Source of the DNA: Acholoe squamosa
Lineage: Eukaryota > Annelida > Polychaeta > Phyllodocida > Polynoidae
Assembly: GCA_949317995.1 (NCBI GenBank)
Contig: OX439047.1
Location: forward strand, 2,714,501-2,778,500
DNA length: 64,000 nucleotides
Direction: 5' to 3'
The position numbers and the translations under genes are program-made. Each line of letters begins with the position of its first letter. Within the stretch, counting starts at the first letter, position 1. Of this stretch, positions 9,134-53,500 are shown piece by piece. A model generated the notes under the pieces. It ran no database searches and was not told the origin of the DNA. It was given only the letters and a program-made list of their open reading frames with translations.

Positions 9134-9188
9134 TGGATCAAATCTCCAAGCTCCTGGTGGCAAGCATCTCAACCGCCCCACAGAACCA

Positions 9189-21751: not shown

Positions 21752-24700
21752 TTAAACAGATTTCTTAGCATGCTTCTTCTTCAGAAGAGCTAGAGCCGAC
21801 TCGGGAGTGCCGTCCCACTCGTCCAAGTTGACTCCGAACACCCTCATGAACTTAGTGTTCAGATTGGTGTTCCGAGTGATCTCCTCCTTTACACGTTTCT
21901 CCAACACGTGCACATCCATAGCTGCTTTTTCCTGGGCAGCTGCGGCAGCGACCTCCTGGGCTTTTACATCGTCCCGGATGAGAGTCTCGAGACGTTGCTT
22001 TTCAGCGTCGCCCACCTGTTTCATGCACAACAGAGTTTCGTTTAGGAGACCCTGATGAAACTCGATCGCTTTTTCACGAACGCACTTCTCCCAATGGGTG
22101 TAGATGGCCTTCTGGACATCTGCCTCCCCTTGGCGAGACTTCTCGAACCAAACTTCCGCATTACCGGTTTTAATGGTAATAGCGTCCTTTGGTTTCTCAG
22201 GTGCAGCGACAGCCTTGGGAGGAGTCGAGGCGGCCTGTGGACCACTTCCGGGTTTAGGACTTCCGGACACACCTGTCGTTGGTACACAGAAGGCAGGTGG
22301 TACATTCTGTTTCAGTCCCATTTGCAGGTACATGTTTAACTGCTCCTCTGTAAAGGTAACTGGTGGGGCGGCTGGAGCGGATGCAGATCCGGCGGCAGCA
22401 GATGCGGTGGTCTTCTTTGGCATAAGGCGACCATCCTTTCCTACCACCAAGGTCTGGCTCTCAGGTCCAGGTCCCTGGTTTAAGGACGGAAAGTTTCGAG
22501 AACTCACTTTCCCAGGTTTAGATACGGCTCCAGCGTATCCGGCAGGTTCGGGCTTCTTAAACACCGGAGTGCCCTGAGCCTGCTCTGCGGGGTGCCTTGC
22601 CAGAGGGGACCTGGAACGGTCCTCTGCTCTGACTTTCGGTTTAGTCGTGCTCTGACCATTACCGTTGCCGCCACGGTTCTGATCTCTCCTGCTCCTTTCA
22701 CGAGCTCTCTTTGCATCCTTTCCGGATTCCTCGCATTTCTGCCAGAGAGACTCGTGCATGTCCAGTTTACCCTTTCCAGGAGTCAGGACTATCTTTGCTC
22801 GGAGTTTCGAATCCTTGGTCTTCGGATCTTCGCAGAGGACTTGGTCCCCTAGTCGGATCTTAGACCAAGCATCCTCGCTCAGACTGTCGAACTCCTTCAT
22901 GAGTTCCTGATGAAGCTCCATGATGCGCTTCCGTGCCCCGTCCAAACCTTCTGCGTGGCATTTCTTCTGGTGTCTAGCCAGATCACTACGTTGGTTGTAT
23001 TGCACCTTAGTAGTACACTTCTTGCCCTTCTTACCATAACTTGGATCACAGATGTAAACCGGGTGATGGTGGAAGTGGGCCTCTACCAGATGCCGTTGGA
23101 ACCGGGCTGGAGTACTCCAGGTCCGGATCGAGACATCACTCGCATCCTGGCAGATAGAGAAGGGACAGGACTTTTGATCGACGCCGTACCACTTCTCTAA
23201 AGCCCAACGCAGCTTCCTCCTCTGGGTATAAGTGTAATACCCTTCGGTGTGGTTTAGCATAAGCCACATCTTTCGATAGGCTTTGCTCGGATTGGGGTCC
23301 TCGTCCGAAAGACGCATCCAATCTTCATCATCCGACTCATCGTTCTTATTGATTGAGTCTGGACAGGCATAGAGGGTAGAGCCGTCCTTCTTAACTCCGT
23401 ACGCACAGTCGGAGAAACACGTCGGAATCCGGGTTTTGAGTCCGGATTTGGCGTTAGCCCAACGTTCGGCCTCGGTTTGAGTTGATGGAGTGGCCTTCTC
23501 ATCATACTCAACCGAGGATTCGTGCACCGACTCCTCGTCAGACGACTCAACCTCCATGGCAGTACTACCAGTGGTTGAGGTGCTGGGTTTGGGCTCGGCT
23601 CTCGCAGAATCCAGGAGATTCTTAAGCTTCCGAGCAGCAGATCGTCGGTTCTTACTGACCTTCCAGTCTTCCTCCGGTTCCTGGGTTCCGGATGTGCTGG
23701 AGGTCGTGGCTTCTACTGGGGTAGTAGTGCTGCCGGTAGCTGATGTAGCACTGGCGGAGCTTCTGGTGGCAAGCTTCAGGTCGGGGATAGGAGGTGCGGG
23801 TGCTTCCGCGGCCCTCTTAGCCTCTTCCTGTGCCTCCTGTTTGGCAGTCATACGGCGGACAATAACCGTCCGAAGGGCTGCAGCTCGGTCCAATCCGATT
23901 AGTGAATTGTTCTGGACATCCACCAATTCCTGTTCGGTTATGTAGTAACCGTCATCCCACTGCTCGAAGTTAGCAGCGGCCTCCCGGAATTCCTTAGTGG
24001 TCCGGCACGGCGTCCGGGTAGCACTAGGGCGTGGGTAGGTCTGGCCATCGGTATCCCAGACACAGCCTACCCAGTTGATGTTCGTAGCCTTGACGTTCCA
24101 CAGGGATTTGTCAGGCTTCGGATACGCTCCGAGCTCGAAGGCTCGGTTAGCTGCATACACGGTTTCACGGAAACCAGCGTCCACCATAAGTCCCCGTTGG
24201 AACCACGGCCAGTCTCGAAGCCACTCGGGAGGCATCCTGGTCAGCTGTTCGGGAGCCATGACGCCCTCGATAGCTATCCTGACTTTCGGGTCCATCCTGA
24301 CTGGTGTCCCATCCGCGTAGGTCACTTGTGCCTGCAGTTCCGGGTGGACATACAGGTAGCGACCATCGTAGCTAGCTGGAAAAGGCTCCGCCACTGCTGG
24401 CTTCCACTCATCCTTCTGCCCGTCAACTTGGGTAGTTTCGGACTCTGTCGCTGCGGGTTCAGCACTCGCAGTCGCTCCGGATCCCTCGGCCGGGAGTGGA
24501 GATAATAGTTTCTCTGGCTCATTTAGTGAGAATGAAGCCAGCTTCTCCTCGAACGAGCGATCCATGGGTTCCTCCACGTCCATCATCTCGCTCTCTTCCT
24601 GTGTAACAGGCGACAAAGCTTCCGGAAAAGCTTCTGCGGACGGAGTCAGCTTATCCGGGTCACCAGATAGCTTGGCTGCAGCTACGGATTCCTCAGCCAT
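21752..24700 (-). CDS. ORF3 of gypsy element B: large Cys/His-cluster protein in the env position (982 aa)
   Basis: ATG 24,698-24,700 has context GTCATGG; the frame is closed by TAG just upstream. Acidic, Ala/Ser/Pro-rich N-terminus (1-100); a more globular Trp-rich region (about 105-290: WLRDWPWFQRG, INWVGCVWDTDG); a Ser/Thr-rich linker; then two zinc-finger-like clusters, C512-x4-C517-x19-H537-x4-H542 and C551-x10-C562-x14-H577-x4-H582; a basic Arg/Ser region (about 660-720); a Pro/Ala linker; and a C-terminal coiled coil (about 890-950). No signal peptide or transmembrane segment, so not an envelope. A nucleic-acid-binding or capsid-associated role is inference. I recognise no family. It may be translated from a spliced RNA. 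Confidence 0.85.
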   Translation of the reverse strand: MAEESVAAAKLSGDPDKLTPSAEAFPEALSPVTQEESEMMDVEEPMDRSFEEKLASFSLNEPEKLLSPLPAEGSGATASAEPAATESETTQVDGQKDEWKPAVAEPFPASYDGRYLYVHPELQAQVTYADGTPVRMDPKVRIAIEGVMAPEQLTRMPPEWLRDWPWFQRGLMVDAGFRETVYAANRAFELGAYPKPDKSLWNVKATNINWVGCVWDTDGQTYPRPSATRTPCRTTKEFREAAANFEQWDDGYYITEQELVDVQNNSLIGLDRAAALRTVIVRRMTAKQEAQEEAKRAAEAPAPPIPDLKLATRSSASATSATGSTTTPVEATTSSTSGTQEPEEDWKVSKNRRSAARKLKNLLDSARAEPKPSTSTTGSTAMEVESSDEESVHESSVEYDEKATPSTQTEAERWANAKSGLKTRIPTCFSDCAYGVKKDGSTLYACPDSINKNDESDDEDWMRLSDEDPNPSKAYRKMWLMLNHTEGYYTYTQRRKLRWALEKWYGVDQKSCPFSICQDASDVSIRTWSTPARFQRHLVEAHFHHHPVYICDPSYGKKGKKCTTKVQYNQRSDLARHQKKCHAEGLDGARKRIMELHQELMKEFDSLSEDAWSKIRLGDQVLCEDPKTKDSKLRAKIVLTPGKGKLDMHESLWQKCEESGKDAKRARERSRRDQNRGGNGNGQSTTKPKVRAEDRSRSPLARHPAEQAQGTPVFKKPEPAGYAGAVSKPGKVSSRNFPSLNQGPGPESQTLVVGKDGRLMPKKTTASAAAGSASAPAAPPVTFTEEQLNMYLQMGLKQNVPPAFCVPTTGVSGSPKPGSGPQAASTPPKAVAAPEKPKDAITIKTGNAEVWFEKSRQGEADVQKAIYTHWEKCVREKAIEFHQGLLNETLLCMKQVGDAEKQRLETLIRDDVKAQEVAAAAAQEKAAMDVHVLEKRVKEEITRNTNLNTKFMRVFGVNLDEWDGTPESALALLKKKHAKKSV

Positions 24701-25237
24701 GACTGGGGAATCGCCCACGGGAGTAAACTACTCCTTTTTCCGGCTTTTACGGCGCCGGGGCTGACACAAACGGAGTCTGTCTACCAGGAGACAGACTCTG
24801 GAGGAGCAGCGGGGGGTTTGCTTAGCTGGTAAAATCCAAGAAGGGAGCGAGCTCGACCGTCTTGGACGTTACCGAAAAACAATATGGCGACAGGCCAGCA
24901 TTCGTGACGTCATTTCCCCGTTGATTCACGGGGTCACGAGAGGTCAGCCGAGACTGGACACGGTGACGTCATGCGGAAACGCACGTGCTACAGGCGGTAC
25001 ATCAACAAACTGATTGTTTTTAGGTAATTATCGCTCACCCCGATGACTCGTCTGGGAATTTAAGTGGAGATTATGGAAAGCTTAAGCAAATCCACCGGAT
25101 TATCCGTCCGCTACCCATTGGTACATCATGCGGGGGCGACAAATAAGCCTTTAGGGTCAGTTGTCATCCGTTCCTCTAAATGTAAACATTACACTCGTTG
25201 TGTATACAGGTTAGGTCACTGCAGTCCTCTGGGCAAT
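24701..25237 (-). other. Gap between pol and ORF3 of element B
   Basis: 537 bp without a long frame, relatively GC-rich for the element. It would have to hold a splice acceptor, internal promoter or re-initiation signal for ORF3; a polypyrimidine-like stretch on the minus strand could serve, but I cannot decide. Confidence 0.45.
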
Positions 25238-28200
25238 TCAGGGGCTGCGGCGAACGTATCTCCCCTTCTCGGATAGTTCTTTATCTGACCTGACAGTCTG
25301 AAGAGCTTTCTCTAGGTGCTTCTTAGCCTTAGAAAAACCTTTCCTCCTCTTTTTGTCTTCACCTGCCGAGACTTTTTTAACTCCCCCACGCTTAATCGGT
25401 GTTGGCGTGGGTGTCACTGATTCGGAACACTTTTTGGGTCTACCACGGCCGCGCTTCACTGTAGTGTTCTCTACCTGGTCTATTATGCGATTCTGGTTCA
25501 GGATCTTTCCGGAACCTTCACCATACATTTCTGTGGAGGTCTCCCTCCCAGACCATTTCCTTAATCTAGCCACATTTGACTTATAAAGTCGACCAAGATC
25601 AGATTTAATAATTACGGTACAATCACTGATAACTTGTGTTATAGTAAAGGGACCGTCCCAATTAGACGCTAATTTTATGTGTCTAAGCGGTTCATGTAAC
25701 CTGAGAACTCTGTCTCCGGATTGGAATTTCCGATGCTTTAGATCGGTATCATATCCTACTTTCTGCCATTTGGCACTTTTCTCCAAATCAATTCGGACAG
25801 ACTCATATGCTTTTCTAAATCTGTCTCTTAAACATTCCACAAAAACTACATGGCAAGGTAGTTCAGGGTCCATCCCTACGACTCCAAAAACTAGGTCAGC
25901 AGGCATTATCAAATCTTCTCCGAATACTAAAAGGTTCGGAGAACAATTTGTACTTGAATGTACCGTACTGTTATAAGCATGTGTCACAAAATGACATTGC
26001 TCATCCCAGTCATCCATATGTTCATTAACGAGTGACTTTAGGACTTGAATGAGGGTTCTATTGAACCTTTCCACCAATCCGTCGCTTTGTGGCCTATACG
26101 GGTTGGTTCTAGTCTTGCAAATAGCTAAGTATTCGCACATACCCTGCCAGAGATTTGATTCGAATTCTCTGCCTTGGTCACTGTGTAACATTAATGGTAC
26201 ACCGAAGCTTAGTACCCAACCTTTTACAAAAGCTTCGGCACAAGTAATTGCTTTGTGGTCCGGTAGTGGAAATACTTTAGTGTATTTCGTATAATAATCA
26301 CACACTACCATCATACAGGTATTGTCATTAGCGGTTGTATTTAATCCACTAATAATATCTACCCCGATTCTTGCGAATCTAACTCCGAAAAGTTCTTGGG
26401 ATAGGGGAAGTTTGCCCATCCCGGGTCCGGGTTTGTTTTTACAACAATCCGGACAGGTGGTTACCCATCTTTGCAAGTCCCGTGTCATGCCAGGCCAATA
26501 GTATTTCTTGGAAAGTCGTGCTAGCGAGCGTTTCCTTCCGAAATGACCACTGGTCCGATGCCCATGACAGAAGTACATAATGTCATGTCTCATAGCATGT
26601 GGTATCACCACTTGCATGATTCTCTCACCATTATTACATGGCTTCCAACGGTATAACACGCCTTTCCGGACTTCAAGCTCGGTCCATTGAGCAAGAAACC
26701 TTCTCATTTCTCGATTTTCCAGAGAGACCTCTGGTCTAACTGGACGTATACCCTTTGGTACTAATTGCAGTAGCTGCGCAGTTATCGAGTCAGCTTCCTG
26801 GAAATGTCGTATGTGATCCATAGACCAATCCAGTATACTGGCAACTAGGGGTACGAATGGTCTTCGAATCCCTGCTAACACTGCCCTATGAGCTCCACAA
26901 TCAGTACAATCTGGATTATCACATTTCCGGATTGGTATTCGAGACAAAGCATCAGCATTTAAATGCTTAACTCCGGGTCTATGCTGAATCTGTTGATGTT
27001 CAAGCCCATATTCGGATAAATGGGCTAGCCATCGGCCTAACATGCCTTCAGCATCTCGGAAGTTCAGTAGCCACCTTAAAGAGGAATGATCCGTACGTAA
27101 AGTAAAGTTCGTTCCCCATAGAAAATGTTTGAACTTCTTGGTATATACGACTACTGCTAACAACTCTCTTTTGGTTGTGCAGTAATTGCCCTGAGTCTTG
27201 CTCAGTGTGTTGCTGGCAAAGGCAATCGGTACTTCTCTCCCATTTTGGACTTGCGAGAGAGCTGCACCAATGCTATCATTACTAGCATCAGTATCCAGTA
27301 TGAAATGATCCGTTTCATTCGGATATTGCAATACGGGAGTACTCGTGAACAGGTCTTTTAGCTTTTGAGAAGCGGTTTCCTGTTCATGCGTCCAAGGAAA
27401 TTTTTCCTTGGTACTTCCTGGAGTCCAGTTAGCTATTGCTTGTAATGGGTAACTGACTCTAGAATAATTCGGAATAAATTCCCTGTAATAGGAACAGAAT
27501 CCTAAAAAGGAACTCACTTCCCTGGGTGTTTTAGGTCTATTCCAATTCGTAACTGATTCGATTTTTTCCGGATCAGCCTTTATTCCTTCATCACTGATGA
27601 TGCGGCCCAAATAATTTATGGACTTTCTAAACATGTGGCATTTCTTAGGTTTCAATTTGAGACCATTAGAAATAATACGTTCTAGTACCATTTTCAGGTT
27701 ATTAGAACACTCTTCGAATGTTTTTCCGAAGACTATGACATCGTCAAGATATACAAGACATCTTTTCCACAATAAATCACTTAGAATTGTTTCCATCATT
27801 GCTTCAAATGTTGCAGGCGCATTGCACAGTCCAAACGGCATTACATTATATTGGAATAATCCAATATGACTCGAAAATGCAGTTTTCTCCATATCTGAAG
27901 GGTTCATTCCCACTTGCCAGTAGCCTGATTGCAAGTCTAGGGTACAAAACCAGCTGTTTCCCCCTAAGGAGTCAATGGTTTCATCTATTCTAGGTAATGG
28001 ATACGAATTCTTTTTCGTTATTCCATTCAACTTCCTGTAGTCTATGCAGAAACGGATAGTACCGTCTTTCTTTGTTACCATACACACAGGACTACTCCAT
28101 GGACTATTGGAAGGGACTATTACATCCTGTTCCAACATCTTGTTTATTTCATCCTCAGCTACTCTCTTTTTTGCTAAAGGTAACCGTCTATACGGTATCT

Positions 28201-29410
28201 TAAAGGGTTCGGCATCTCCAGTATCTATTTTATGTAATACTTTATTTGTCGTACCTAGTTTTTCACCAGGTTTGGCAAAGGCAGTATGATACTGACGGAG
28301 CATATCATAGAACTCTTTCCGGTGTTCCGGATCCTCTAATGAAGTTTCTTCATACAACCTAAGTAAGTCTTCCGAAATTTCATCATCCCCTGTTACCTTC
28401 TGTAAGCTTAGCTTACTATCCGTTACAGTTTCCGAAAGGGTCACATTTCCAAAAACTTGTCCCTTTTTCAAGTAGATAGTAGTGTTTCCAGTATTGGAGA
28501 CAGGTACTACCGACCAGGATGCATTCGCTACTATCGTGTCTACAGAATTTAATCCGATACTTGATAACGTAACTACATCCGGTTCTATCACTGCAGGCTT
28601 ATTACGCATTGCAGGATCACTTCTTACAAGCACATCACAGGCTACTCCCGGAGGGATTCGCACAGTGTGTGCCACACTAGCCATACTGCTCACTTGTCTC
28701 AGTACACATCTAACTTTTACGGGATACGGGTATCTCACACTCAACACTCCTGTCTGGGGTTCTAACACAGCACCATACAGGGATGCGAAATCCAACCCAA
28801 GTATACCCTCATCTGCTATATCCGCAACGGTGGTGCTCATGACATAGTCATGGATACCATCCAACTGTAGTTTCACACAAGTTCTACCATACGTTTGTAA
28901 GGTACTGCCGTCGGCCGTCTGAGCACTTCCTCCCGATTTGAGAGTCTCATGTTCATCCGGTATAAGATCGTAGAAACCCCTGGAGATACAAGAGTGGCTA
29001 GCTCCCGTATCCACAAGGAATTCGGCAGATCTTCCGTTAACAGTGAGGCAAACATACCACCGCCTTCCGTTTAGAACAGAGGGTATGTCCGTGACAATCG
29101 GAACGTCATTTTTCACACCAGGAGTCGATCCACATCTTTTCAGGAATTCAAGACAAGGATGACCCGGGGGCAGGTGGGCACCACAGACCTTGGCTAATTC
29201 ATAGCCGCCTGCCTCGTTACTGATATTGGGTTTCCCCTGTGCGCCTGTGGCACCTGTTATATCAGCTTCCCTAACCTTCCGGGTGTCTACAACCACCTCG
29301 GTGTTAGGCGATCTTGTTACTAAATGCGAACCATCGTCACGGATGGTGATATTATGGCAAAATTTGTCATTGGGATCCCCTTCTTTGCCCCTCGGGAGAT
29401 CCCTTTCTAG
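25238..29410 (-). CDS. pol: Pol of gypsy element B: PR-RT-RNase H-integrase with AT-hook
   Basis: The frame opens at 29,446, overlaps the end of gag by 37 nt in -1 phase and has no early ATG, so expression by frameshift at 29,410-29,416 is likely; the start given is the first pol-phase codon there. Numbering from a GTG at 29,296: protease DTGA 96-99 with ILGLDF; RT with IRFCIDYRKLN, TLDLQSGYWQV, MPFGLCNAPATF and YLDD 516-519; RNase H (DTDAS ... TKRELLAVV ... RTDHSSLRWLL); integrase H2C2, then D (GVDIISG), D (HSDQG) and E (GLVERFN), all present. The GPY/F module (WDGPFTI) is followed by a basic tail with the AT-hook KRGRGRPKK at 1,281-1,289. Fully open. Confidence 0.95.
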   Translation of the reverse strand, partial: LERDLPRGKEGDPNDKFCHNITIRDDGSHLVTRSPNTEVVVDTRKVREADITGATGAQGKPNISNEAGGYELAKVCGAHLPPGHPCLEFLKRCGSTPGVKNDVPIVTDIPSVLNGRRWYVCLTVNGRSAEFLVDTGASHSCISRGFYDLIPDEHETLKSGGSAQTADGSTLQTYGRTCVKLQLDGIHDYVMSTTVADIADEGILGLDFASLYGAVLEPQTGVLSVRYPYPVKVRCVLRQVSSMASVAHTVRIPPGVACDVLVRSDPAMRNKPAVIEPDVVTLSSIGLNSVDTIVANASWSVVPVSNTGNTTIYLKKGQVFGNVTLSETVTDSKLSLQKVTGDDEISEDLLRLYEETSLEDPEHRKEFYDMLRQYHTAFAKPGEKLGTTNKVLHKIDTGDAEPFKIPYRRLPLAKKRVAEDEINKMLEQDVIVPSNSPWSSPVCMVTKKDGTIRFCIDYRKLNGITKKNSYPLPRIDETIDSLGGNSWFCTLDLQSGYWQVGMNPSDMEKTAFSSHIGLFQYNVMPFGLCNAPATFEAMMETILSDLLWKRCLVYLDDVIVFGKTFEECSNNLKMVLERIISNGLKLKPKKCHMFRKSINYLGRIISDEGIKADPEKIESVTNWNRPKTPREVSSFLGFCSYYREFIPNYSRVSYPLQAIANWTPGSTKEKFPWTHEQETASQKLKDLFTSTPVLQYPNETDHFILDTDASNDSIGAALSQVQNGREVPIAFASNTLSKTQGNYCTTKRELLAVVVYTKKFKHFLWGTNFTLRTDHSSLRWLLNFRDAEGMLGRWLAHLSEYGLEHQQIQHRPGVKHLNADALSRIPIRKCDNPDCTDCGAHRAVLAGIRRPFVPLVASILDWSMDHIRHFQEADSITAQLLQLVPKGIRPVRPEVSLENREMRRFLAQWTELEVRKGVLYRWKPCNNGERIMQVVIPHAMRHDIMYFCHGHRTSGHFGRKRSLARLSKKYYWPGMTRDLQRWVTTCPDCCKNKPGPGMGKLPLSQELFGVRFARIGVDIISGLNTTANDNTCMMVVCDYYTKYTKVFPLPDHKAITCAEAFVKGWVLSFGVPLMLHSDQGREFESNLWQGMCEYLAICKTRTNPYRPQSDGLVERFNRTLIQVLKSLVNEHMDDWDEQCHFVTHAYNSTVHSSTNCSPNLLVFGEDLIMPADLVFGVVGMDPELPCHVVFVECLRDRFRKAYESVRIDLEKSAKWQKVGYDTDLKHRKFQSGDRVLRLHEPLRHIKLASNWDGPFTITQVISDCTVIIKSDLGRLYKSNVARLRKWSGRETSTEMYGEGSGKILNQNRIIDQVENTTVKRGRGRPKKCSESVTPTPTPIKRGGVKKVSAGEDKKRRKGFSKAKKHLEKALQTVRSDKELSEKGRYVRRSP

Positions 29411-29416
29411 TTTTCC
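29372..29416 (-). promoter_or_regulatory. Probable -1 frameshift signal at the gag/pol junction (element B)
   Basis: On the minus strand gag ends GAG-GAA-AAC-TAG: heptamer GGAAAAC at 29,416-29,410. After a six-base spacer, GGGATCTCCC (29,403-29,394) can pair with GGGGATCCC (29,380-29,372) as a nine-pair stem with one bulged base and a 13-base loop. Pol is in the -1 frame. Same heptamer, same stop position and same spacing class as element A. Confidence 0.65.
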
Positions 29417-30744
29417 TCTATACTTATCCCAGAGACACTCTCCTGTTTACGCGGAACAGGCTTTTCAGCCATACATTCGGGAGCAAAATGCCCCAGTTTC
29501 TGACATCTGAAACATCTCCTTTGAGATTTATCAACTCTTGGTCTCCTTAGAGCTTCTGTTAATCCGGCTATTAATGTTTCCATCATGTTAGTCGGAGCAA
29601 CAGTGGCTGCTACAGTTGAGTTCGCCGTAGAGGCTACACTGCCATGTTGAGTTGATCCGGAAGCTGTTTTACCAGCAACAGATCCTCCTCTCCCTCTCGA
29701 ATGTACTTTCCTATACCGCTTTTGTCGGTAATACTTTCCAGCCACATGGACTGAACCAATATATTCTCCGTTTTCATCGGAGACATATTCATCTTCCTCA
29801 TTAACTTCATTCGATTCAACCGGAGCTAATTGGGAAGTATCATATACCGGAGCAGGTGTACCTCCGTATTGGAAAGGAGCTGCTCTTACTGGACTAGGTC
29901 CAAGACCTACCAAACGTTTCTTCATGTCATGTCCATCAATTGCTATGAACAGATCACTGAAGGAAGTGTCGTCTTTCCAGGAGTCCCACACCACTTGCTT
30001 ATGATCCGGATCTCGCAATCCACTATAGAATTGTATGAACAATTCTTGTAGATAACAATCATCGTCATGAGCCCAATTTGGACGTGCTTTCGAAAGCAAG
30101 TCCTGTAGCTCCAAACCAAAGACTTTGTGTGATTCTTTAGGTTTTTGTGTTCTCTTTTTAAAGCTTAGCCACGGATCTTCTCTAACGATTGATCCGAAAA
30201 GGTATGCGGCACATTCGACCAATTGATCATAGGTACCGTATATTCCGTAAGCTGCTCTCCATTGGTTGAGAGCTACTTTTCCGCCTTTATTTAACCAACA
30301 AATCAAATATGGCAGAGCTTCTTCTTTTGTCCATCCACTACAATTGACTTCATCAACAAAAGCTTGATACCTGTCCTTCCATGGATCATTAGAATCATAT
30401 GGAGGGGGTATCCGTGCCTGCCTACGTGCCGGATTATTACATCCGCGTAGTCTATCTGCTTCTCGCATGCTCCAGTTCATGACTTCCATGCCGTCTGCTC
30501 CCTTTCGGTAGCAGTCAATGCCAAGGTTTTGGATACATTGGCTCCTATCAAAGATGGTGGTGGTAATCGAATCACTTAATTCGTCAACAAGCGATTGTTG
30601 GCCTATTAAGTTACTATGTCTCTGGATAGACTGTTCGCGTCGTACAGAGTCTGGCAGATTCTCTTCACTATCATTATAGTGGGGTCCGGGATCTCTCCAA
30701 GATGCTGATTCCGCATCTTGCGAGTCCGAATGGGCTTGGAGCAT
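29407..30744 (-). CDS. gag: Gag of gypsy element B (445 aa)
   Basis: The first ATG in frame is at 30,742-30,744. The frame is open 38 codons further, to a GTG only 26 bp from the LTR, but ATG gives a 139-nt leader. The N-terminal third is polar. The central capsid-like Gag domain has WLNKGGKVALNQW, SIVREDPWLSFKKRTQ and LFIQFYSGLRDPDHK. Near the C-terminus is one CCHC zinc knuckle, CFRCQKLGHFAPEC. The stop TAG at 29,407-29,409 directly follows the frameshift heptamer. It packages element RNA and forms the particle. Confidence 0.9.
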   Translation of the reverse strand: MLQAHSDSQDAESASWRDPGPHYNDSEENLPDSVRREQSIQRHSNLIGQQSLVDELSDSITTTIFDRSQCIQNLGIDCYRKGADGMEVMNWSMREADRLRGCNNPARRQARIPPPYDSNDPWKDRYQAFVDEVNCSGWTKEEALPYLICWLNKGGKVALNQWRAAYGIYGTYDQLVECAAYLFGSIVREDPWLSFKKRTQKPKESHKVFGLELQDLLSKARPNWAHDDDCYLQELFIQFYSGLRDPDHKQVVWDSWKDDTSFSDLFIAIDGHDMKKRLVGLGPSPVRAAPFQYGGTPAPVYDTSQLAPVESNEVNEEDEYVSDENGEYIGSVHVAGKYYRQKRYRKVHSRGRGGSVAGKTASGSTQHGSVASTANSTVAATVAPTNMMETLIAGLTEALRRPRVDKSQRRCFRCQKLGHFAPECMAEKPVPRKQESVSGISIEEN

Positions 30745-30865
30745 TAATGATCCATTTCCATTCTCTTGGGCAAGTGATTGCCCTGCTGGGTTAGCTTCCC
30801 TAAGGGTGTCTAACCCATGTACTAGCCGTTCGGACGTTATAACGTCCGGGCTATACACCAGAATT

Positions 30866-44220: not shown

Positions 44221-44670
44221 TTACTCATCCAGCTCATTCAGCTCATCACCCATTAACATCATCTGTTTAATTCTTGCTTTAAATTTAAGTTTACTTTCAC
44301 TGTGTTGGACATCAGATCGGAGATTGTTCCATAACTCAACTCCTCTATATAGCGGCGAGTTGTTGAATCCCATGTTACATGCTCTGGGAATGACTATTTT
44401 GATTTTTGATTCAGACCTCATACCTGGCCCTCTGATTTCCTCATCGACCCAATCTGGATTTCTTGATAATTTGTACATGAAGCTAAGCAATAGTTCTTGT
44501 CGTCTCCTCATCAGGATTGGAATATTTGCCCGTTCATGGAGCTCTTCTTCATTAAGATCCAAACCTCTGAAACAAATTTTAAGGCCTCTCTTCTGCATTC
44601 TGTCCAACTTTTTTAGCAGGCCTTTATTAGCCCCCTCATAGGCAAAACAAGCGTAATCAAACACAGACAT
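44221..44670 (-). pseudogene. LINE C reverse transcriptase, C-terminal part
   Basis: VFDYACFAYEGANKGLLKKL, QKRGLKICFRG, LMRRRQELLLSFMYKL and YRGVELWNNLRSDVQ are the hallmark end of LINE RT proteins, stopping at TAA 44,221. The ATG at 44,668-44,670 is incidental; it is simply where the insert joins. Confidence 0.85.
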
Positions 44671-46385
44671 GGGTCAGTGTCAGAATAAGTGTACAAAACC
44701 TGGAAAACCATGTTTTTTGGCCTTTATGCAGCCATAGAATAAATTATGCTTATCCAATTGTGTCTTCCATGGTCTCATCTTACAGAAGACATTCTAGCCT
44801 TTCTGAAAAATATCATTTGTGTCTGTCATGTAAAAATTCTTTGAGTTAAGGTGTCCCAAAGTCCCAAAATCACTAAAAATCCTGTTTTTTTGCAGTTAAG
44901 GATTTTTCACATGTCCTACTGTCCACTCAAAGACTAGAAACCCATCCAAAATTGCCTGTGGTATTAGGCATATATTAGGCCTACACTATTTATGTCAGTT
45001 TAGGTGGATGTTGATTGAGAATTTTTCACTATGGTCACTCATGTGTGGAATTTTACTCTTCGAGGCGTCTGTGCAATAACACCTAGGTCAGAATAACTCT
45101 ATCAATAATAGTGATATAATGTCTCTAATACATGTCACATAAAGAACTTATAAGGGGGTGAAGTTGGTATAAAGATTTTAGCCATCGGTCAAATGGTCCC
45201 TGATTTGTGGGTCAGAATGTCAATGTGGACTGGGTTTTCGTCACAGACGCCTCAACTGCATGTTATAATGTTGCTAATTTATTTAAGTATCCATTTGTGT
45301 TTCTTACATGTCATATCAACCAACACAGCCTGCTTATCAATTCTGACAAGCATTGGTAGGCTGTGGGTCTGCATAGTAGCATTTTGAGTACCATTTCTCA
45401 TATAGGGGGTTTTCGTCACAGACGCCTCACGATTTTGTTTGTTGCAAAGTCAGAATCATCTGGTGTTACCCAGTGGAAGTCAATTACTTGGGGGAGCCTT
45501 GTTTTTGTCAAATAAGTGTTACATCTGGTTGTTTATCAAAGATTTTCTGAAGATTCTCTGCAGACTTTGACAAATTTTGCCATCAAAGTTTAGGAATCCG
45601 ATCAAATTTCTTTCGCAGTCCAAAGATTATATCCCCTAGTACTTGCTGATGTGGTTAGATTTGGTTAATTTGGTGTCATTTTGATGAAAACAGTATAGCT
45701 TGATTGAATCAGCAAGCCTCTTGGACTTGGCAGGTGCCTGCCATGTTGATTTTGGGCGATATTTGATACAGACTCATATTCGTGAGGCGTCTGTGACGAA
45801 AACTCCTGTTGAACAAAATTCTCTCTGGTGAGCACCATATGCTGCCCTAAGGTCAAAAATGGATTGAAATGTGCAGAAATGATGTGCCCCAATTAGGTTG
45901 GGGCATTTGCTACATGTTCTGTTGATTTTATTCAAGAGTTGGTGGGTCTAAAATTGTGTTTGACCTAAAAGTGCCTCAAATTGCTCCAGAAATTCTTACC
46001 TGTACATGAAAAGAGGGTATTCAATTGACTTTTCTGCAGTTGATATGATGTTTTGTACTCTTATTCATCAATTGTGTGTGTTATAATTAGAATCCCATTA
46101 CTTATTTGGCCACAACAAGCACCAAAGTGCAAAAATAAGTTTTCGTCACAGACGCCTCCGACGGAAATGAAATTCTGGTCTTGTAATCTTGCAAAGCATC
46201 ATCTATACAATATTTATTCTCGGTAGACTATAATACATTATTATTCAATGTCCTGACCTAAAATAATTACATTTCCAGCATATTTATCTAAATTCATTGC
46301 ATTTTTAGTTTTCGTCACAGACGCCTCATTTCAACATTTTCCTCAAAAAATAAATATTTTCAGTCCATATAACCAACTAATCTAA
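44671..46385. mobile_element. Insert in LINE C with dispersed 20-bp motifs (possible non-autonomous DNA transposon)
   Basis: 1.7 kb of sequence with no long ORF, exactly between two halves of an RT. It holds GTTTTCGTCACAGACGCCTC five times and a partial sixth, in both orientations. The ends (GGGTCAGTGTCAGAATAAGT at the left; minus strand GGTTATATGGACTGAAAATA at the right) are only weakly alike, so terminal inverted repeats are not proven and the exact limits are uncertain by about 20 bp. Dispersed short motifs near both ends are typical of transposase-binding sites. Confidence 0.5.
45062..46327. repeat. Six dispersed copies of GTTTTCGTCACAGACGCCTC
   Basis: Plus-strand copies are at 45,234-45,253, 45,409-45,428, 46,139-46,158 and 46,308-46,327. 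A minus-strand copy is at 45,784-45,803, and a 12-base minus-strand core (GAGGCGTCTGTG) at 45,062-45,073. The five full copies are identical over 20 bases while the sequence between them is unrelated. None occurs elsewhere in the window. Confidence 0.9.
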
Positions 46386-46683
46386 GTAACATGGTGGTTT
46401 TATAGACTGTTACAGCAACCTTTTCAGATAACATGTTTCTGAATTTACTGAATCTAAAAAGAGGGTGGTTAATTTTGCTATTTAAGTCCTTTAGCGCAGG
46501 TTCAAAACTCAATAGACTGTCTAACTTTAGTCCTAAGTAGCAATAGTTACTCAGGGTTTCAAGTTCTTTGTTATTCAAATAAAGTTTTTGGCCCGTGGAC
46601 TTTGGCAACTTTTTGCATGAACCATACCACACGACTTTGGATTTATCCGTGTTAGCAGTAAGCCTTTTGGTTACAAACCACAT
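46360..46683 (-). pseudogene. LINE C reverse transcriptase, thumb region
   Basis: LTANTDKSKVVWYGS, YLNNKELETLSNYCYLGLKLD and VAVTVYKTTMLL are the standard post-catalytic RT motifs of LINEs (the N-x-x-K-S-K motif, YLG, and the helix before the conserved aromatic block). After TTMLL the frame runs into the insert and stops at 46,360. Confidence 0.8.
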
Positions 46684-46872: not shown

Positions 46873-47184
46873 GAAGGTGGCTTACATTCTGTTCAGAAGG
46901 GTTCGGATATCCATGATGTACCATCCTCTCCGTTTCCTGCTTCTTAGATATGGAAATGAATGTATTAAAATATTGAAGAATACTTTCTACCAGTGTGTGA
47001 GCGGTGTGTCATGGCGGCATCCGACTGAGACGCGCAGCGGGATCGGAGGTGCAATATTAGAGAATAATTTGAGTCAACCTACCTGAACCTAGTCTGTCAA
47101 TGGATTAACTTCAACATAAAGGTGTTCTGAAGTGATAAGACCACAAATACAGACATAATATTTGTCAATATCGTCATAACTGCT

Positions 47185-48696
47185 ATGTCTCAGCGAGGGA
47201 TTGGACCGGCGACTAGAAAGTCAAAGAAGGGCGAGCTACCTGACAGTGCTACACTGCAAGAGGTAATTATAGCTGTCAATGCCTTGGGTTACCGAATGAC
47301 TGAATGTGAATCTAAAACTGCTGGCATCATGGAAACATTAAACAATGTTCAAGATACCCTTGGAAATGTTAAAACATCTTGTGAAAAAACTGCTGGGGCT
47401 CTAGATGGCATTAAACAGTCCATTACCACTACCCAAGATACACTTACACGTTTGACTGACTCCATGTCAACCACTGAGGCCGCCATGAAGTCACACCAAC
47501 TGGTTTCTGTAGCGCAGACTAGACTCCTTACTGAACATTGCAACAAGTTTTCAAATATAGAGAAGGATGTAAAAGGTAAAATCCTTATTATAAAGGGAGT
47601 CAAAGAAGAAGTTACTGATATAAAGGATCGAGTTACCAAGCTACTTTCTGATATTGAGGCGGACTTTGGCATTGAAACTGTAGAATATATGGAACGTGTA
47701 GGCCCGAAACCCAAGCCTAATGGTCAGGGATTTATTCCCAATGATAAACACCGTCCAATACGAGTTGGCTTAGTACGAGCCACTGTAAAACCAAAAATCA
47801 TGGCGCTTCTAAAAAACCTGAAGGGCAAGGCTTTATGGTCTAATGTCTCAATTGGAGATCAGCTTGATGAAGTGGAAAATAGACAATTCACTGATTTAAG
47901 AGCTATATACTTTCAAGCAAAGAGTGTGGGCCTCATGGCTCAGTTGCGCCAAAGATCTGTGATTATAGAAGGGAAGATATACAACTATGAGAACATTGGT
48001 AATATCCCCCATAAAGATGTAACATTGGAACTAGCTACCACAGGACTAACACCAGATGGGCTCATGTTTAGATCTGTACACAATCGTCTCTCGAATCTCT
48101 ACTCAGTCAAGTTTAAATGGAATGGAACTGAATATAACAGTGCAGAACAAGCCTTTCAGGCTGAAAAGGCAAGGCAGAGTGGCAGACCTGACGCTCTAGA
48201 GAAAATTATGTCAATGTCTAATCCCTATGATATCATGTATGAAGGCAAAGAGATCAGACACTCAGTGGAATGGGCCAAAGCTGCTGAGAGAGTAATGCTT
48301 AGCATCCTGAGATCTAAATTCAGAGATCCACAGTGTAATTATGCTCTCTTAGACACTGGAAATTTACAGTTATACGAGGCTGGCTTCCACCCAGTGTGGT
48401 CTTGCGGGTACCATCTTGGCCAAGCTAATCAGTGTACACAAGGGAGCCTAAAGTGCAAGAATCTACTAGGTATTACTCTGTGTCGACTCAGATCGGAGCT
48501 TCAAAGAGAGACTGATGAGATGGCCGAGACTACCAGAGAGGAAGAAAACCCACCCCCATTAGAAGGAGATGAAGATGAAAACCTGCCGGAAGAAAACCCA
48601 ACAGAAGTAGCACAACAACATCTTCAGACACCTAAACAACAACAACCCGGGCTAAATCCTCACAATCCTAATGGTTCACCTGAAACAGAATTGTAG
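47185..48696 (+). CDS. LINE A ORF1 protein: coiled coil - RRM-like - NADAR
   Basis: 503 residues from ATG 47,185. Residues 22-130 form a coiled coil with regular Leu/Met/Ile spacing. Residues 131-275 are RRM-like (GKILIIKGVKEE ... RPIRVGLVRATVKPKIMALL), as in ORF1p of many LINEs. Residues 293-438 are a complete NADAR (YbiA/DUF1768-type) domain: LSNLYSVKF, YNSAEQAFQAEKA (E321, K328), IRHSVEWAKAAERVM (W363), LRSKF, YALLDTG, LYEA, VWSCG (W405), CKNLLG (K425-N426, G429) and LCRLR. An acidic then Gln/Pro tail ends the protein. NADAR enzymes act on ADP-ribose-linked substrates, including ADP-ribosylated guanine. Here the other domains imply binding of element RNA. No NADAR in a LINE ORF1 is known to me. 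Confidence 0.85.
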   Translation: MSQRGIGPATRKSKKGELPDSATLQEVIIAVNALGYRMTECESKTAGIMETLNNVQDTLGNVKTSCEKTAGALDGIKQSITTTQDTLTRLTDSMSTTEAAMKSHQLVSVAQTRLLTEHCNKFSNIEKDVKGKILIIKGVKEEVTDIKDRVTKLLSDIEADFGIETVEYMERVGPKPKPNGQGFIPNDKHRPIRVGLVRATVKPKIMALLKNLKGKALWSNVSIGDQLDEVENRQFTDLRAIYFQAKSVGLMAQLRQRSVIIEGKIYNYENIGNIPHKDVTLELATTGLTPDGLMFRSVHNRLSNLYSVKFKWNGTEYNSAEQAFQAEKARQSGRPDALEKIMSMSNPYDIMYEGKEIRHSVEWAKAAERVMLSILRSKFRDPQCNYALLDTGNLQLYEAGFHPVWSCGYHLGQANQCTQGSLKCKNLLGITLCRLRSELQRETDEMAETTREEENPPPLEGDEDENLPEENPTEVAQQHLQTPKQQQPGLNPHNPNGSPETEL

Positions 48697-49312
48697 TTTG
48701 TACAGGGCCCCATGCCAGCTTAGGTATTATTGACTATAACCGCAATGAATCTGTGCCTATAATTATCATTGATCTCTACAGCGCCCACTGAGTGGGAGTC
48801 GCGGTTGGTTTAGCATTGATTTAGCTCTATTTTGGGCGCGACCCTTGTGTTTGGTATTATGTTTCAATTACCTTGACCCACTGCCCTGATGTACTCAAAA
48901 TCATAACATATCAATCAGCTGACCAGCATACGAAGGTATAGCTTTTGTTACAGGGATTCTATATGATATTTGATACGGAGTGAAATCTTTGACACAAGTA
49001 TAGGTGTAATTTCATTGACATTGAAACATTATGCATAATTGAATTGATACAATAGTGGCACTTCTCCCACAACGCGATGTATGCAAACATAGGAGGCCAT
49101 AAGAGCCGGATACCTATGTTGGGATTAAGGGGGTTAATAATGGGGGTAATATTACTGGTAAGTGTATATCAAGGAGCAAAGAGGGAGGTGATTCCCTGTA
49201 GCACAAAGTCAACCTACTGTGTAGCCATTTGTCAATCTGCAGCGCTACATGCTAATTTTTACATCAGGTATACCAATGAGGTTCAGAACACTTGCTCAAG
49301 GCTAAGTATACT
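48697..49312 (+). other. Spacer between ORF1 and ORF2 of LINE A
   Basis: No gene supported. An incidental 79-codon frame at 49,077-49,316 has no features. Confidence 0.6.
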
Positions 49313-49681
49313 ATGACGAAACCGATGTTTAAAAAGGGTTTTACAATTGTCCATTTAAATGCCCGAAGTATCCGTAATAAAATGCCTAGCTTGAGAAGGG
49401 ATTTAGATAGACAAGGTATTGAAATTATTTTATTCTCTGAAACATGGCTTAACTCTACCGACTGTGATGGCTTATACACGTTTCCCAGATATAACTTTTT
49501 TAGACAGGATCGAGTTAGTATATATAGAGGGGGAGGACTGTGTGCACATGTTGATGAAGCAGTCACTTGTTCTATCGATACTTTTAAACACTTGAATAGA
49601 TGTAATGACGATATTGAAATACAGTGGCTATTATCTGTTAAGGGAAATTCGAAAAAAATCAATTATATGCAATATATATAG
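49313..49681 (+). CDS. LINE A ORF2, first part: APE-type endonuclease
   Basis: From ATG 49,313: FTIVHLNARSIRNK, IEIILFSETWL (catalytic Glu), YNFFRQDR and RGGGLCAHV are the N-terminal and middle motifs of LINE endonucleases. The frame ends at TAG 49,679 because a run of seven A (49,652-49,658) shifts it by one; the continuation is in the next frame. With one base fewer the two parts would be in phase, so this is a recent or sequencing-level lesion. This enzyme nicks target DNA to prime reverse transcription. Confidence 0.85.
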   Translation: MTKPMFKKGFTIVHLNARSIRNKMPSLRRDLDRQGIEIILFSETWLNSTDCDGLYTFPRYNFFRQDRVSIYRGGGLCAHVDEAVTCSIDTFKHLNRCNDDIEIQWLLSVKGNSKKINYMQYI

Positions 49682-52145
49682 ACCACCCGACAGCAACTTA
49701 ACCAACTTCTGCGATACTTTGAAAGCCTTATTTTTACAAATTGACATTATGGATTCATACGACATATTTGTGTTGGGTGATTTCAATGTAAATACTCTGA
49801 TTAATTCAAATGAAAAAAACAAACTCTACGAGGCACTGGACCAATTTCATTTAAGACAGATTGTCAATTCAATAACAACTTCCTCCGGAACTAATACATG
49901 CATTGACTTAATTTTCACTAATTGTAACAATATTGTATCTTCAGGCCCACTGGATTTTCACCTAAGCGATCATCTTCCAGTTCATATCACTAAAAACCAT
50001 GTCAATGTTAAGAAAAGATATAGACAATTTTATGGTAGGTCCTATAGGAATTTTGATATGAATAAATATATCAGCGACCTAGATGTATGTGATTGGACGT
50101 ATTTTGATAATAGTAATGATGTCACTGAATGTTGGGATATTTTTGAAAATATGTTAAAAAGAATGTTAGATATTCAGTGCCCGGTGAAATCATTTAAGGT
50201 ACAAGATAAACCTGCTCCATGGATGACTAATTTTCTACTTGAGCGTATAAATGATAAGAACAAATTGCTAAAGGCTGCACGGGTTTCCACCTCACTCATA
50301 GATTGGCACAATGCAAGGACCATTCGTAATGAAGTTAATAATGAAATTAATTTAGCAAAAGAGGCTTATTACAAGGAATTGTCTGAAAACATGATAAATG
50401 ATTCCAAACAATTTTGGACAATTATGAAAGACATTTTACCTTCTAGTAAAAATGGAACGAAAAGTATCAACTTGACGAATACTGATGGTGATACAATATC
50501 ATTGGATGAAACTTCTGGTTTTATAAATAAATTTTTTGCAGAGATAGGTCCCTCATTAGCCAGTGCACATAACAAAGAATTTGAGTTTAAGGGTACGCGA
50601 TGTATTGATGATATGCCTGATTTGAAATTTTCAGATGACGAAATTATAAAGGCATTGAAAGATCTAGATATATCTAAGTCGTCAGCCATAGAGTATTTAC
50701 CAACAAATATATTTAAAGCTGCAGCCTTGCACATGTCTGCAAGGTTTATTAAGATCATTAATTTATGTTTAGCCAAAAATTGTATCCCTGATAAATGGAA
50801 GATTGCAACTGTGACTCCGCTACCAAAAGGAGGCGACTCCACTAATGTGTCTAATTATAGACCAATCAGTGTACTACCAGTTCCTGGTAAACTACTAGAA
50901 AGACTAATACATAATTCTATCTCAGATCATTTGGAAACTCATAATATTTTGTCTAAAAACCAAGGAGGATACCAAAAGGGTAAATCGACTATAGATTCTA
51001 TTGCCAAGCTAGTAGATGATATTTTAGAAAATAGAAATTTAGGAAATATTTCAATAGCCATCTTTATTGATATAAAAAAAGCTTTCGATTCCGTAAATCA
51101 CTCAATATTAATAAAAAAACTAGAGCAATTTGGGATCAGAAATAGAAATTTGACGTTAATTGAGAATTATCTTTCTAGGAGACAACAATGTTCAGTCGCA
51201 AACCACAAGAGATCTAGTAACCTTCCATTATCCTGTGGGGTACCGCAAGGGTCTATATTAGGACCTCTCTTTTTCCTTTTGTATATAAATGATTGTATTT
51301 CAACCTATGATGTTCACTCCACTATGTTATATGCAGATGATTCCGTTTTGTATGCTCATGGAAAAACTATCCAAGATATTTCTACTGTATTAAATACGGC
51401 TATAAACAATTTTTTCATGTGGTCATCTATAAACAAACTTACTGTGAATGAAAGCAAGACCAAGGTAATGGTCTTTGCATCGTCAAAAAAGTTAAAGAAG
51501 TTACCAAAACCAAAAATTTATTTGAATAATGAGTTATTAAAATGTGTTATTTCTTATAAGTATCTAGGGGTCATTCTTGACCAAGAGCTTAACTTCAACA
51601 TGTACATTAGAAGTGTTATAAAGAATGTTAGATACAAGTCATATTTGTTGTATGCCACAAGGAAATGTATGTCTAAACAAACAAGGTTACGTATATATAA
51701 ATCCTATGTTGTGCCAGTCATTGATTATTGCGACATTTTATATATTGGTTCTAAAGACGACCATCTAGGAGAACTTCAAAGACTCCAGAATAAGTGCCTA
51801 AAGACGTGTATGGCATACCATATACTAACCCCTACAAATAAGGTTCATGCTGATGCTAATCTCCCTAAATTAAAATATAGACGGGATCATCACCTTAGAG
51901 TGTTTGCTTATAAGAGAAGGTTTCAGGATGGCTATGTGAAACAAATTGTAAGACAGACTAGGTTCAATGCTGCTCCTGTATTAGATTATCCTATTCCTAA
52001 GTGTCGTGCCTATGAGTATACTCCTAAAGTGTTGTCAGCAAGAGCTTGGAACAACCTCAGTGTTGAGTTAAGAGATATAGTGGAAAAGGACTCATTTAAG
52101 GCTAAATCTAAAGATATTATGGTCACAAAAATTCCTGTGGTTTAA
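49659..52145 (+). CDS. LINE A ORF2, main part: endonuclease C-terminus and reverse transcriptase
   Basis: Starts after the A-run frame change; the frame itself is open from 49,605. NIYRPPDSNL, VLGDFNVN and FHLSDHLPVH complete the endonuclease (SDH is its catalytic His). RT: ATVTPLPKGGDS, NYRPISVLP, FIDIKKAFDSVNH, GVPQGSILGPLFFLLYIND and MLYADDSVLYA (YADD codons 51,330-51,341), then YKYLGVILDQ, VVPVIDYCDILY and SARAWNNLS near the C-terminus. No RNase H domain follows. Fully open to TAA 52,143. Together with ORF1 it would perform target-primed reverse transcription. Confidence 0.9.
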   Translation, partial: SIICNIYRPPDSNLTNFCDTLKALFLQIDIMDSYDIFVLGDFNVNTLINSNEKNKLYEALDQFHLRQIVNSITTSSGTNTCIDLIFTNCNNIVSSGPLDFHLSDHLPVHITKNHVNVKKRYRQFYGRSYRNFDMNKYISDLDVCDWTYFDNSNDVTECWDIFENMLKRMLDIQCPVKSFKVQDKPAPWMTNFLLERINDKNKLLKAARVSTSLIDWHNARTIRNEVNNEINLAKEAYYKELSENMINDSKQFWTIMKDILPSSKNGTKSINLTNTDGDTISLDETSGFINKFFAEIGPSLASAHNKEFEFKGTRCIDDMPDLKFSDDEIIKALKDLDISKSSAIEYLPTNIFKAAALHMSARFIKIINLCLAKNCIPDKWKIATVTPLPKGGDSTNVSNYRPISVLPVPGKLLERLIHNSISDHLETHNILSKNQGGYQKGKSTIDSIAKLVDDILENRNLGNISIAIFIDIKKAFDSVNHSILIKKLEQFGIRNRNLTLIENYLSRRQQCSVANHKRSSNLPLSCGVPQGSILGPLFFLLYINDCISTYDVHSTMLYADDSVLYAHGKTIQDISTVLNTAINNFFMWSSINKLTVNESKTKVMVFASSKKLKKLPKPKIYLNNELLKCVISYKYLGVILDQELNFNMYIRSVIKNVRYKSYLLYATRKCMSKQTRLRIYKSYVVPVIDYCDILYIGSKDDHLGELQRLQNKCLKTCMAYHILTPTNKVHADANLPKLKYRRDHHLRVFAYKRRFQDGYVKQIVRQTRFNAAPVLDYPIPKCRAYEYTPKVLSARAWNNLSVELRDIVEKDSFKAKSKDIMVTKIPVV

Positions 52146-52675
52146 ATGATAATATTAATGATTGCAATAATTAAGTTTTATATGGGTCAATCATTAGACC
52201 TAGGTGTAGCAACCGCGCCAGGTCCACATCAACTGACAAAATTAATATAATTGCCTTGTATTGTATTATAGCTTTATATCAGGCTATATAGTTTTTAGTC
52301 AAGAGATGTTGTTAAGGGAATCACCCCCTTGAATTTGAAAGCTCATGTTGCGAGGGTTATTCAAGGGAGGGGGGAAGGGGGGAAGGGATGGACATGGGAT
52401 GTATTTAGTCAAGAAATATAAGTACCATTATAGGTTGTCTGCCATGACACAATAAGTATGAGTGAACCTTTCCTTTTTGTTATTAAGTTTAATAATTTTA
52501 TATGGTGTCACCAAAACAACATAGTGTATGAAGGTGGCACCATTAACTTGATTGACCAGCATAGTATTACCTCCATGGTAAATGGTTATAATTGAGAAAG
52601 TGCTATATATGGCCATGTATCCTGCACACACCTTAGGTCAATAAAGTTTAAATTTGTTCAAAAAAAAAAAAAAAA
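52146..52675 (+). other. 3' UTR and poly(A) of LINE A
   Basis: Includes a G-rich stretch GGGAGGGGGGAAGGGGGGAA at about 52,367, AATAAA at 52,640 and sixteen A at 52,660-52,675, the normal end of a poly(A)-tailed LINE. Confidence 0.8.
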
Positions 52676-53500
52676 TACACACTGCACTAATGAAGTGCCA
52701 CCATGGATTGATCGCATTATGGATCATTGTAATTACGTTGGGTAAACCCCTTAAGGAATCATTGCATTTAATATAAGCATCAGTCTAATAATGTTGGGAG
52801 AAAGCATATCACTGTCAATGTGCTAACAATGAGCAATAATGAGAGTCAGAGGTTATCAAATCTTGGGGTATTTATACAGAATGAATATGATCACAGGTCT
52901 GTCATCTCGTTGAAAGGCAATGAACCATGGTTGATACTGCATCATCGCCTGTTGTCAGTTCATCCTTTTTAATGCAAACCAAAGTGCAATGAATTGAACA
53001 AAAACATCCATGAAGACCAAAAGAGGGGATAATTAAACTCATTAAAACCTTAAACCCTCATCTTATAATTTCATCCTTTTTGGCAAAATCTGATTCAGGA
53101 TTAAAGAACACTCAGCTTCATTATTACCTATGTCACCGGTTCACCCTTTTAGTCCCTGGTAAGTAACATGTCAATGCTGCATTCAAGCATCATGACAAAC
53201 CTTTGTGTGTATTCAGCATCATGATGCACAAATGCAACAAATGTATTTCTCTCTATAAAGAAGCCCCCCTTGACTAAAACTGCTGTTCAATGAAATATGC
53301 AGTAGAAATGGTTAGTTCATTGCTGATGCATTATTCATAAAGGGGTGTAGTTATAGATGAATGTGAACAGCCGACATGGAAATAAAGCACATCAACTTGT
53401 CTACTGCAGCAATATTAATACCTGTTCGGCAATATTAAGAGTTTAATTTTTAATAATGGGAGAACCCTTTAACATCCACAGAGTATATCTCTGATCTCTC
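52676..53500. other. Non-coding
   Basis: No gene seen. Short phrases with GCATCATGA and TGCATCAT recur here and through 54.4-60.6 kb. Confidence 0.5.

Follow-up and report, generated by a model that had tools for sequence, protein, structure and literature searches.

A NADAR domain inside the ORF1 protein of a young LINE from Acholoe squamosa

NADAR domains in described mobile elements

The closest described counterparts of the element analysed here are Tx1 LINEs of the Pacific oyster (Crassostrea gigas), where the ORF1 proteins of several families appear to hold NADAR domains of the YbiA family (PMC12477816). A preliminary description of the present locus had been aware of no such LINE ORF1 in the literature, a statement that has to be given up in view of this report. 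The oyster LINEs and the element in our window (the whole stretch of DNA that was analysed, 64,000 nucleotides) have in common that a LINE ORF1 contains a NADAR domain. In its available text, the oyster report consists of one sentence from a database look-up, and the window element differs in its reverse transcriptase (RT), which is far from L1. Its ORF2 scores 59.5 bits against human L1 ORF2p, compared to 234.7 bits for L070, the RT of another NADAR LINE in the same genome, and on these scores we reject membership of the window element in the Tx1/L1 clade. When searching the mostly open-access literature on NADAR or DUF1768 in retrotransposons, we found PMC12477816 alone to be on point among the papers listed. 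NADAR in a LINE ORF1 is thus already mentioned for oyster Tx1; what this analysis adds is a LINE of another clade, the occurrence of NADAR across several clades, evidence of selection on the domain and a map of its active site.

Other described systems resemble the window element in single respects. Gypsy elements of Ectocarpus are likewise retrotransposons with NADAR; unlike the window LINE, they are LTR elements with the domain at the N-terminus of Pol, and the authors found almost only bacterial relatives (PMC12477816). In invertebrate RNA viruses, NADAR domains occur in polyproteins together with the polymerase, and host macromolecular ADP-ribosylation has been proposed as their target (PMC9503650). 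These are also replicating elements with NADAR and polymerase, but they are RNA viruses and no integrating retroelements. Enzymatic domains in ORF1 are few and the esterase is the studied case (PMC3905857). The type IV ORF1 of CR1/L2 LINEs, like the window ORF1, carries an added hydrolase domain (PMC3905857; PMC4120745), yet this esterase (SGNH) is a different enzyme; in the present genome, the ORF1 of the locus L065 holds both NADAR and an SGNH-like stretch (sub-threshold). A survey of 448 ORF1s of the Jockey superfamily names RRM, CCHC, PHD, coiled-coil and esterase domains (PMC4120745), and the terms NADAR and DUF1768 have no occurrence in its available text. Lastly, the DarT1-NADAR antitoxins and the NADAR of P. 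nicotianae belong to the same Pfam family, and the equivalents of their residues E43, K50, G78, W89, E125 and W133 are kept in the window protein. It differs from them in that D130, R93 and K75 are changed, R79 is K and the domain is fused to an RNA-binding retrotransposon protein (PMC11543638).

The role of LINE ORF1 proteins is poorly understood. A NADAR domain that is under selection in recently active elements connects retrotransposition directly, and in a way open to testing, with the ADP-ribosylation of nucleic acids. An active domain would point to host modification of retrotransposon RNA or cDNA, of which we found no report in the mostly open-access literature.

The ORF1 protein and its active site

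The ORF1 of the window element has the following parts:

47185..48696, + strand: ORF1, 503 aa in a single open frame, with a coiled-coil-like part, an RRM-CTD-like part, NADAR and an acidic tail
47242..47559, + strand: coiled-coil-like region, about aa 20-125; sub-threshold Pfam matches only, mostly to coiled-coil-like families
47572..48039, + strand: RNA-binding region of RRM-CTD type by similarity, about aa 130-285; aligns with the same part of other NADAR ORF1s, and a profile of it matches LINE-1 ORF1p weakly (E about 0.02)
48079..48504, + strand: NADAR domain, aa 299-440; PF08719 E=3.3e-19, pN/pS 0.079 for aa 292-442
48511..48693, + strand: acidic C-terminal tail, aa 443-503, less constrained; pN/pS 0.250

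The initial reading of the locus, a complete NADAR domain inside one LINE ORF1 frame, is borne out. The proposed comparison to the Pfam NADAR model PF08719 gave a significant, full-length match (70.2 bits, cut-off 35.1; E=3.3e-19; profile positions 10-163 of 163) within the 503-aa frame, and an ORF2 follows downstream. With an HMM from 12 NADARs that excluded the window clade, the ORF1 protein scored 95.4 bits, and the best of 2000 shuffles scored 8.5. The stretch aa 288-454 also aligns to phage genes, with 30.6% identity. Among the NCBIfam models, TIGR02464 (riboflavin-intermediate N-glycosidase) is the nearest; the window protein stays under its cut-off (68.9 vs 73.7 bits), whereas the proteins of the loci L049, L050 and L065 are above it. 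A search of the PDB with the single ORF1 sequence gave no match.

The RRM-like region that had been proposed upstream of the domain has weaker support than NADAR. It has no Pfam match. A profile of nine homologous ORF1 stretches gave weak matches to LINE-1 ORF1p in the PDB (2ykp at 0.018, 2yko at 0.019 and 2w7a at 0.044), but ribosomal protein S6 is level with them at 0.019. In the comparison to type II ORF1 proteins (coiled coil-RRM-CTD), L1ORF1p thus has an E-value of about 0.02, the same as an unrelated ribosomal protein.

To map the active site we used the chain 8bau, which is offset by two from the P. nicotianae NADAR numbering of PMC11543638. As 12 of the 12 residues checked agree under this offset, we infer that the chain is the P. 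nicotianae NADAR. Four positions are of particular relevance:

48145..48147, + strand: E321, equivalent of E43 (E88 of E. coli C7 NADAR); E in 22/22 intact ORF1s
48166..48168, + strand: K328, equivalent of K50 (K95 of E. coli C7 NADAR); K in 22/22 intact ORF1s
48376..48378, + strand: E398, equivalent of E125 (D171 of E. coli C7 NADAR); E in 22/22 intact ORF1s
48388..48390, + strand: H402 instead of D130, a substitution characteristic of the window clade; H in 22/22 intact ORF1s

The first three correspond to the catalytic residues that were tested by mutation in PMC11543638 (E43/E88, K50/K95, E125/D171), and all of them are present in the window protein. Furthermore, G78, W89 and W133 correspond to G354, W363 and W405, which are invariant in the 22 intact ORF1s, and R79 corresponds to K355. 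The preliminary description had gone further and claimed every station of the NADAR family. This holds for the catalytic E-K-E residues but not for three other places, where the solved eukaryotic NADAR has D130, R93 and K75 and the window protein has H402, A367 and M351. The changed residues are likewise invariant (22/22 intact ORF1s). R93 and K75 vary among accepted NADARs too and are therefore not family-defining. Six window-clade rows have a histidine at the place of D130, as do P0008 and P0030; all remaining LINE rows have D.

Across the 19 LINE-labelled rows of our NADAR tree, E43, K50 (as K or R) and E125 are kept without exception. The residue at K50 is R in L045, L046, L049 and P0018, and W133 is lost in L042, L044, L046, L050, L052, P0017 and P0021. 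In published mutants of the E. coli C7 NADAR, changes of the E125 and K50 equivalents reduced activity; at the E43 equivalent, a change to Q matters while a change to A has only a slight effect in vitro; and the K75 equivalent has an effect in cells but none on catalysis (PMC11543638). An arginine at the place of K50 is reported to be active in vitro, and the remaining site residues were assigned from crystal contacts (PMC11543638).

The element, its copies and other NADAR-bearing LINEs

The element around ORF1 comprises the following features:

47010..52675, + strand: whole LINE copy, 5,666 bp; co-linear with the full-length copies L031, L032 and L034 at 98.7-99.6% identity
49292..49681, + strand: start of ORF2 with the first part of the endonuclease; ORF2 frame broken in the window copy, open in L031 and L032
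49605..52145, + strand: rest of ORF2, endonuclease and reverse transcriptase; Exo_endo_phos_2 E=5.5e-10, RVT_1 E=7.4e-37
52640..52645, + strand: AATAAA, read from the sequence
52660..52675, + strand: A run at the 3' end, read from the sequence; a like run ends L031, L032 and L034

The element is a young, recently active two-ORF LINE. ORF2, with endonuclease and RT, lies 3' of ORF1, and the dispersed copies show a common 3' end, an A run and 5' truncation. Two copies (L031 and L032) are 99.6% identical to the window copy and have both ORF1 (521 codons from stop to stop) and ORF2 (954) open. The frame shift of the window copy is located in the endonuclease part of ORF2. L034, at 98.7% identity, has an open ORF1 and a broken ORF2, and L033 diverges from the other copies within ORF2. 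The ORF2 of the window element carries motifs such as GVPQGSILGP and YADD, which would fit the Jockey superfamily (CR1/L2-like).

That the fusion is not an assembly join, as first argued from the uninterrupted frame, is confirmed by the same ORF1 frame in five copies on five contigs (98-100% identity, window included). We also looked for copies of the LINE without NADAR, which had been named as evidence against the proposal. In a DNA search with positions 47010-49290 (40 of 48 candidates scored), the five listed copies at 98-100% identity, again including the window, are whole across the NADAR region, so that the domain is present in 5/5 listed near-identical copies that reach it. Three further near-identical copies (on C2, C14 and C17) start 3' of NADAR, at query positions 1517, 2112 and 2083, as in 5' truncation. 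Copies shortened at the 5' end are typical of target-primed reverse transcription. At the four full-length copies we detected no target-site duplication of at least 7 bp; in some LINE clades such duplications are short or absent. The 5' ends are variable, with GGGG directly 5' of the first shared base in L031 and L032 and other letters in the window copy, L033 and L034. Rfam gave no match at gathering threshold in 46900-52800, and a candidate 3' stem in the tail RNA was rejected because it folds no better than shuffles (z 1.18; 177/200 fold as well).

The ORF1 protein search of the 1.48-Gb genome resulted in at least 88 matches (best 85 of 3680 candidates scored). Of those listed, 80/88 extend to aa 429 or further and the eight that fall short of it still adjoin NADAR-region sequence, so that no NADAR-less relative was found among them. 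For instance, L008 is decayed and has NADAR remnants in another frame, pieces of the NADAR region were found as partial or DNA matches at C3:15196, C7:20128, C3:72368 and C15:34446, and the ORF1 match at C1:73620222 reaches aa 397. In a search of the genome with PF08719, all 150 scored matches (the best 150 of 3224 candidates) were above the cut-off. Among the 48 ORF2 relatives that were scored (of 28299 candidates), at least 25 are preceded by a listed NADAR ORF1 match at a distance of 379-1078 bp, the ORF1 lists holding 88 and 86 matches; with the first list alone, the number is at least 20/48. Three of the 23 unlinked ORF2 relatives were inspected: two are 5'-truncated (C2:110998545 and C14:48398285) and one has a truncated NADAR end upstream (C3:45599292).

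NADAR ORFs also precede endonuclease or RT genes in four further lineages of the genome, which were taken from 30 loci of the NADAR family search, some of which were followed. In L049, a coiled coil-RRM-NADAR ORF1 is followed by an endonuclease and then the RT L070, with ORF2 interrupted in that copy. The score of this RT against human L1 ORF2p, given above, makes L049 L1/Tx1-like, and it may be of the oyster Tx1 NADAR type. The second lineage, L065, has a 757-aa ORF1 (ORF 259-2529) that combines NADAR and, at its end, an SGNH-like part (SASA, below threshold). It is followed by an endonuclease and an RT (L072; 96.4 bits to human L1 ORF2p), with 62 unread bases between the stretches. It is a young LINE family: four copies have the 757-aa frame open at 99-100% identity, and many of the 68 matches listed begin late in the ORF. 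In L050, a coiled coil-RRM-NADAR ORF1 precedes a separate GDSL/SGNH-like ORF (L050:1883-3052, sub-threshold) and then an endonuclease (L071), possibly a three-ORF LINE layout. This endonuclease is under the Pfam cut-offs but aligns to the window ORF2 over 394 aa with 27% identity (E=1e-37). L066 contains a NADAR ORF and then an endonuclease. A further locus (L044 with L069) has a NADAR ORF1 and an SGNH-like ORF (L044:2440-3237, sub-threshold); no RT was observed there. Over the RT, the window ORF2 shares 22% identity with L070 and 25% with L072. NADAR is thus tied to three clearly different RTs and, with endonucleases counted, to five lineages in one genome.

Outside this genome, a search of a protein database (5.8 billion sequences) yielded four ORF1 relatives at 27-46% identity, all of which have an RRM-CTD-like stretch joined to PF08719; P0003 is without the N-terminal part and P0004 without the end of NADAR. 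A second homologue search, using the alignment, returned the same four proteins only. P0008, which stems from a NADAR search, aligns across RRM-CTD as well, and P0017 and P0021 are similar by eye. The LINE labels of P0002-P0005, P0008, P0017 and P0021 are taken from architecture alone, with no RT seen. A NADAR stretch that is 26% identical to ORF1 aa 317-439 was observed in a 253-kb IMG/VR viral contig (L074:3001-3387).

We compared an RRM-CTD tree to a NADAR tree for the same 11 rows and observed no supported conflict. Since the RRM-CTD/NADAR junction is also alignable across rows, the data would fit one old RRM-NADAR fusion that passed between LINE clades by ORF1 exchange, with deep branches being weak. 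The full NADAR tree has 43 rows, 22 of them without group label, and its deep branches are weak. An origin from present host NADAR genes is unsupported: L039 and L040 fall among stand-alone NADARs, on a branch (96/90) without LINE rows.

Selection and possible functions of the domain

To estimate selection, we used the 22 of the first 30 loci that have an ORF1 of at least 400 aa, window copy included. From 7 disjoint pairs, pN/pS is 0.079 for NADAR, 0.081 for RRM-CTD, 0.120 for the coiled coil and 0.250 for the tail. Over 51 non-independent pairs with dS 0.1-0.9, the median dN/dS is 0.066 (NADAR), 0.073 (RRM-CTD) and 0.086 (coiled coil); for the tail, 48 such pairs gave 0.203. Picking long open ORFs biases somewhat toward constraint, equally for every part of the ORF. 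Purifying selection on NADAR is as strong as on the RNA-binding part, and the tail is relaxed. The domain is thus about as needed as the RNA-binding part.

The preliminary description had proposed that NADAR protects the RNA or cDNA of the element from an ADP-ribosylation-based host defence, which is plausible from published biochemistry. ORF1p would coat the element RNA, probably also the nascent cDNA, so that NADAR would travel in the ribonucleoprotein (RNP). There it might hydrolyse ADP-ribose from guanine bases of the RNA or single-stranded cDNA, removing lesions that a host ADP-ribosyltransferase would have laid and that would block translation or reverse transcription. As the most likely explanation, at about even chances, ORF1p would carry such a guanine-ADP-ribose eraser in the RNP of the element, with the substrate and the host counterpart inferred. 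NADARs, including eukaryotic ones, reverse guanine ADP-ribosylation in ssDNA (PMC11543638), and for ADP-ribosylated guanosine in RNA they are the sole hydrolase family tested that reversed it, as macrodomain and ARH-like enzymes failed (PMC11833690). Shellfish and butterflies make guanine-modifying ADP-ribosyltransferases, for which defence roles were proposed, in shellfish an immune one (PMC8053099). L031 and L032, whose two ORFs are both open at 99.6% identity to the window copy, also count toward this explanation. Counted against it are the changed equivalents of D130, R93 and K75 and the missed TIGR02464 cut-off. The main doubt is whether these three changes permit catalysis. Furthermore, YbiA and phage NADARs are active in vitro, yet gave no protection from DarT1 in E. 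coli (PMC11125620); activity thus does not imply protection. A search of the host genome for the Scabin-like guanine-targeting transferase PF22596 gave no match, and neither did the control.

That several LINE lineages in the same genome carry NADAR suggests a pressure common to them rather than a one-off fusion. A wider and more tentative reading is that NADAR might be a mobile module, repeatedly recruited to LINE RNPs (at least five lineages: the window type, L049, L050, L065 and L066), that erases guanine ADP-ribosylation from retrotransposon nucleic acid. If true, the germline would be expected to have a so far undescribed defence in which the RNA or cDNA of retrotransposons is tagged with ADP-ribose.

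The domain might instead be a binder and not an enzyme, one that recognises a protein or an RNA end (ADP-ribosylated or capped) and aids RNP assembly or localisation. The changes of the ADP-ribose-contact residues R93 and D130 in the window clade are in line with this, as is the nematode protein SNA-3, whose NADAR domains serve in an RNA-processing complex in contact with the cap-binding complex, without a demonstrated activity (PMC9303266). However, a binder would not readily explain that E321, K328 and E398 are fixed in 22/22 intact ORF1s and that the same three places are kept in 19/19 LINE-labelled rows, and we regard this alternative as unlikely, if a serious one. Slightly less probable still is that NADAR has small-molecule substrates (free ADP-ribose derivatives, cyclic ADP-ribose variants or riboflavin intermediates) and dampens NAD-derived signals of the host instead of repairing nucleic acid. 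Soluble substrates have been argued for phage NADARs (PMC9503650), and TIGR02464 is the nearest NCBIfam model, with L049, L050 and L065 above its cut-off; but the window protein misses that cut-off, and the fusion to an RNA-binding LINE protein points to a nucleic-acid substrate.

Although LINE ORF1s are known to be modular and swapped (PMC4120745), we consider it very improbable that the domain is a passive passenger, joined by chance and without function. Its constraint equals that of the RNA-binding part, unlike that of the relaxed tail, the database relatives at 27-46% identity likewise join an RRM-CTD-like stretch to NADAR, and neither active NADAR-less lineages of the LINE family nor a tail-like pN/pS of NADAR were seen. 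Host-type NADAR matches do exist in the genome: the two best PF08719 matches, L039 (G000:C17:9901769-9902218) and L040 (C14:682108-682554), are strong, single-frame and outside LINE-like ORFs, and look like ordinary host genes; nevertheless, an assembly artefact or a host NADAR gene beside a LINE fragment has a negligible probability, given the same ORF1 in five copies on five contigs and the separate, supported branch of these two loci.

The window contains further mobile elements beside the LINE. A Gypsy/Ty3-like element lies at 7172-17402 (+ strand), with a gag (Ty3_capsid), pol frames recognised by eye and then an 880-aa ORF without Pfam match. A second Gypsy-like element at 21752-30858 (- strand) has a zinc-knuckle gag, a 1352-aa pol and then a 988-aa ORF without Pfam match. 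Short ORFs at 44221-46683 (- strand; 149 and 107 aa, the 149-aa one without Pfam match) look by eye like the end part of a LINE ORF2.
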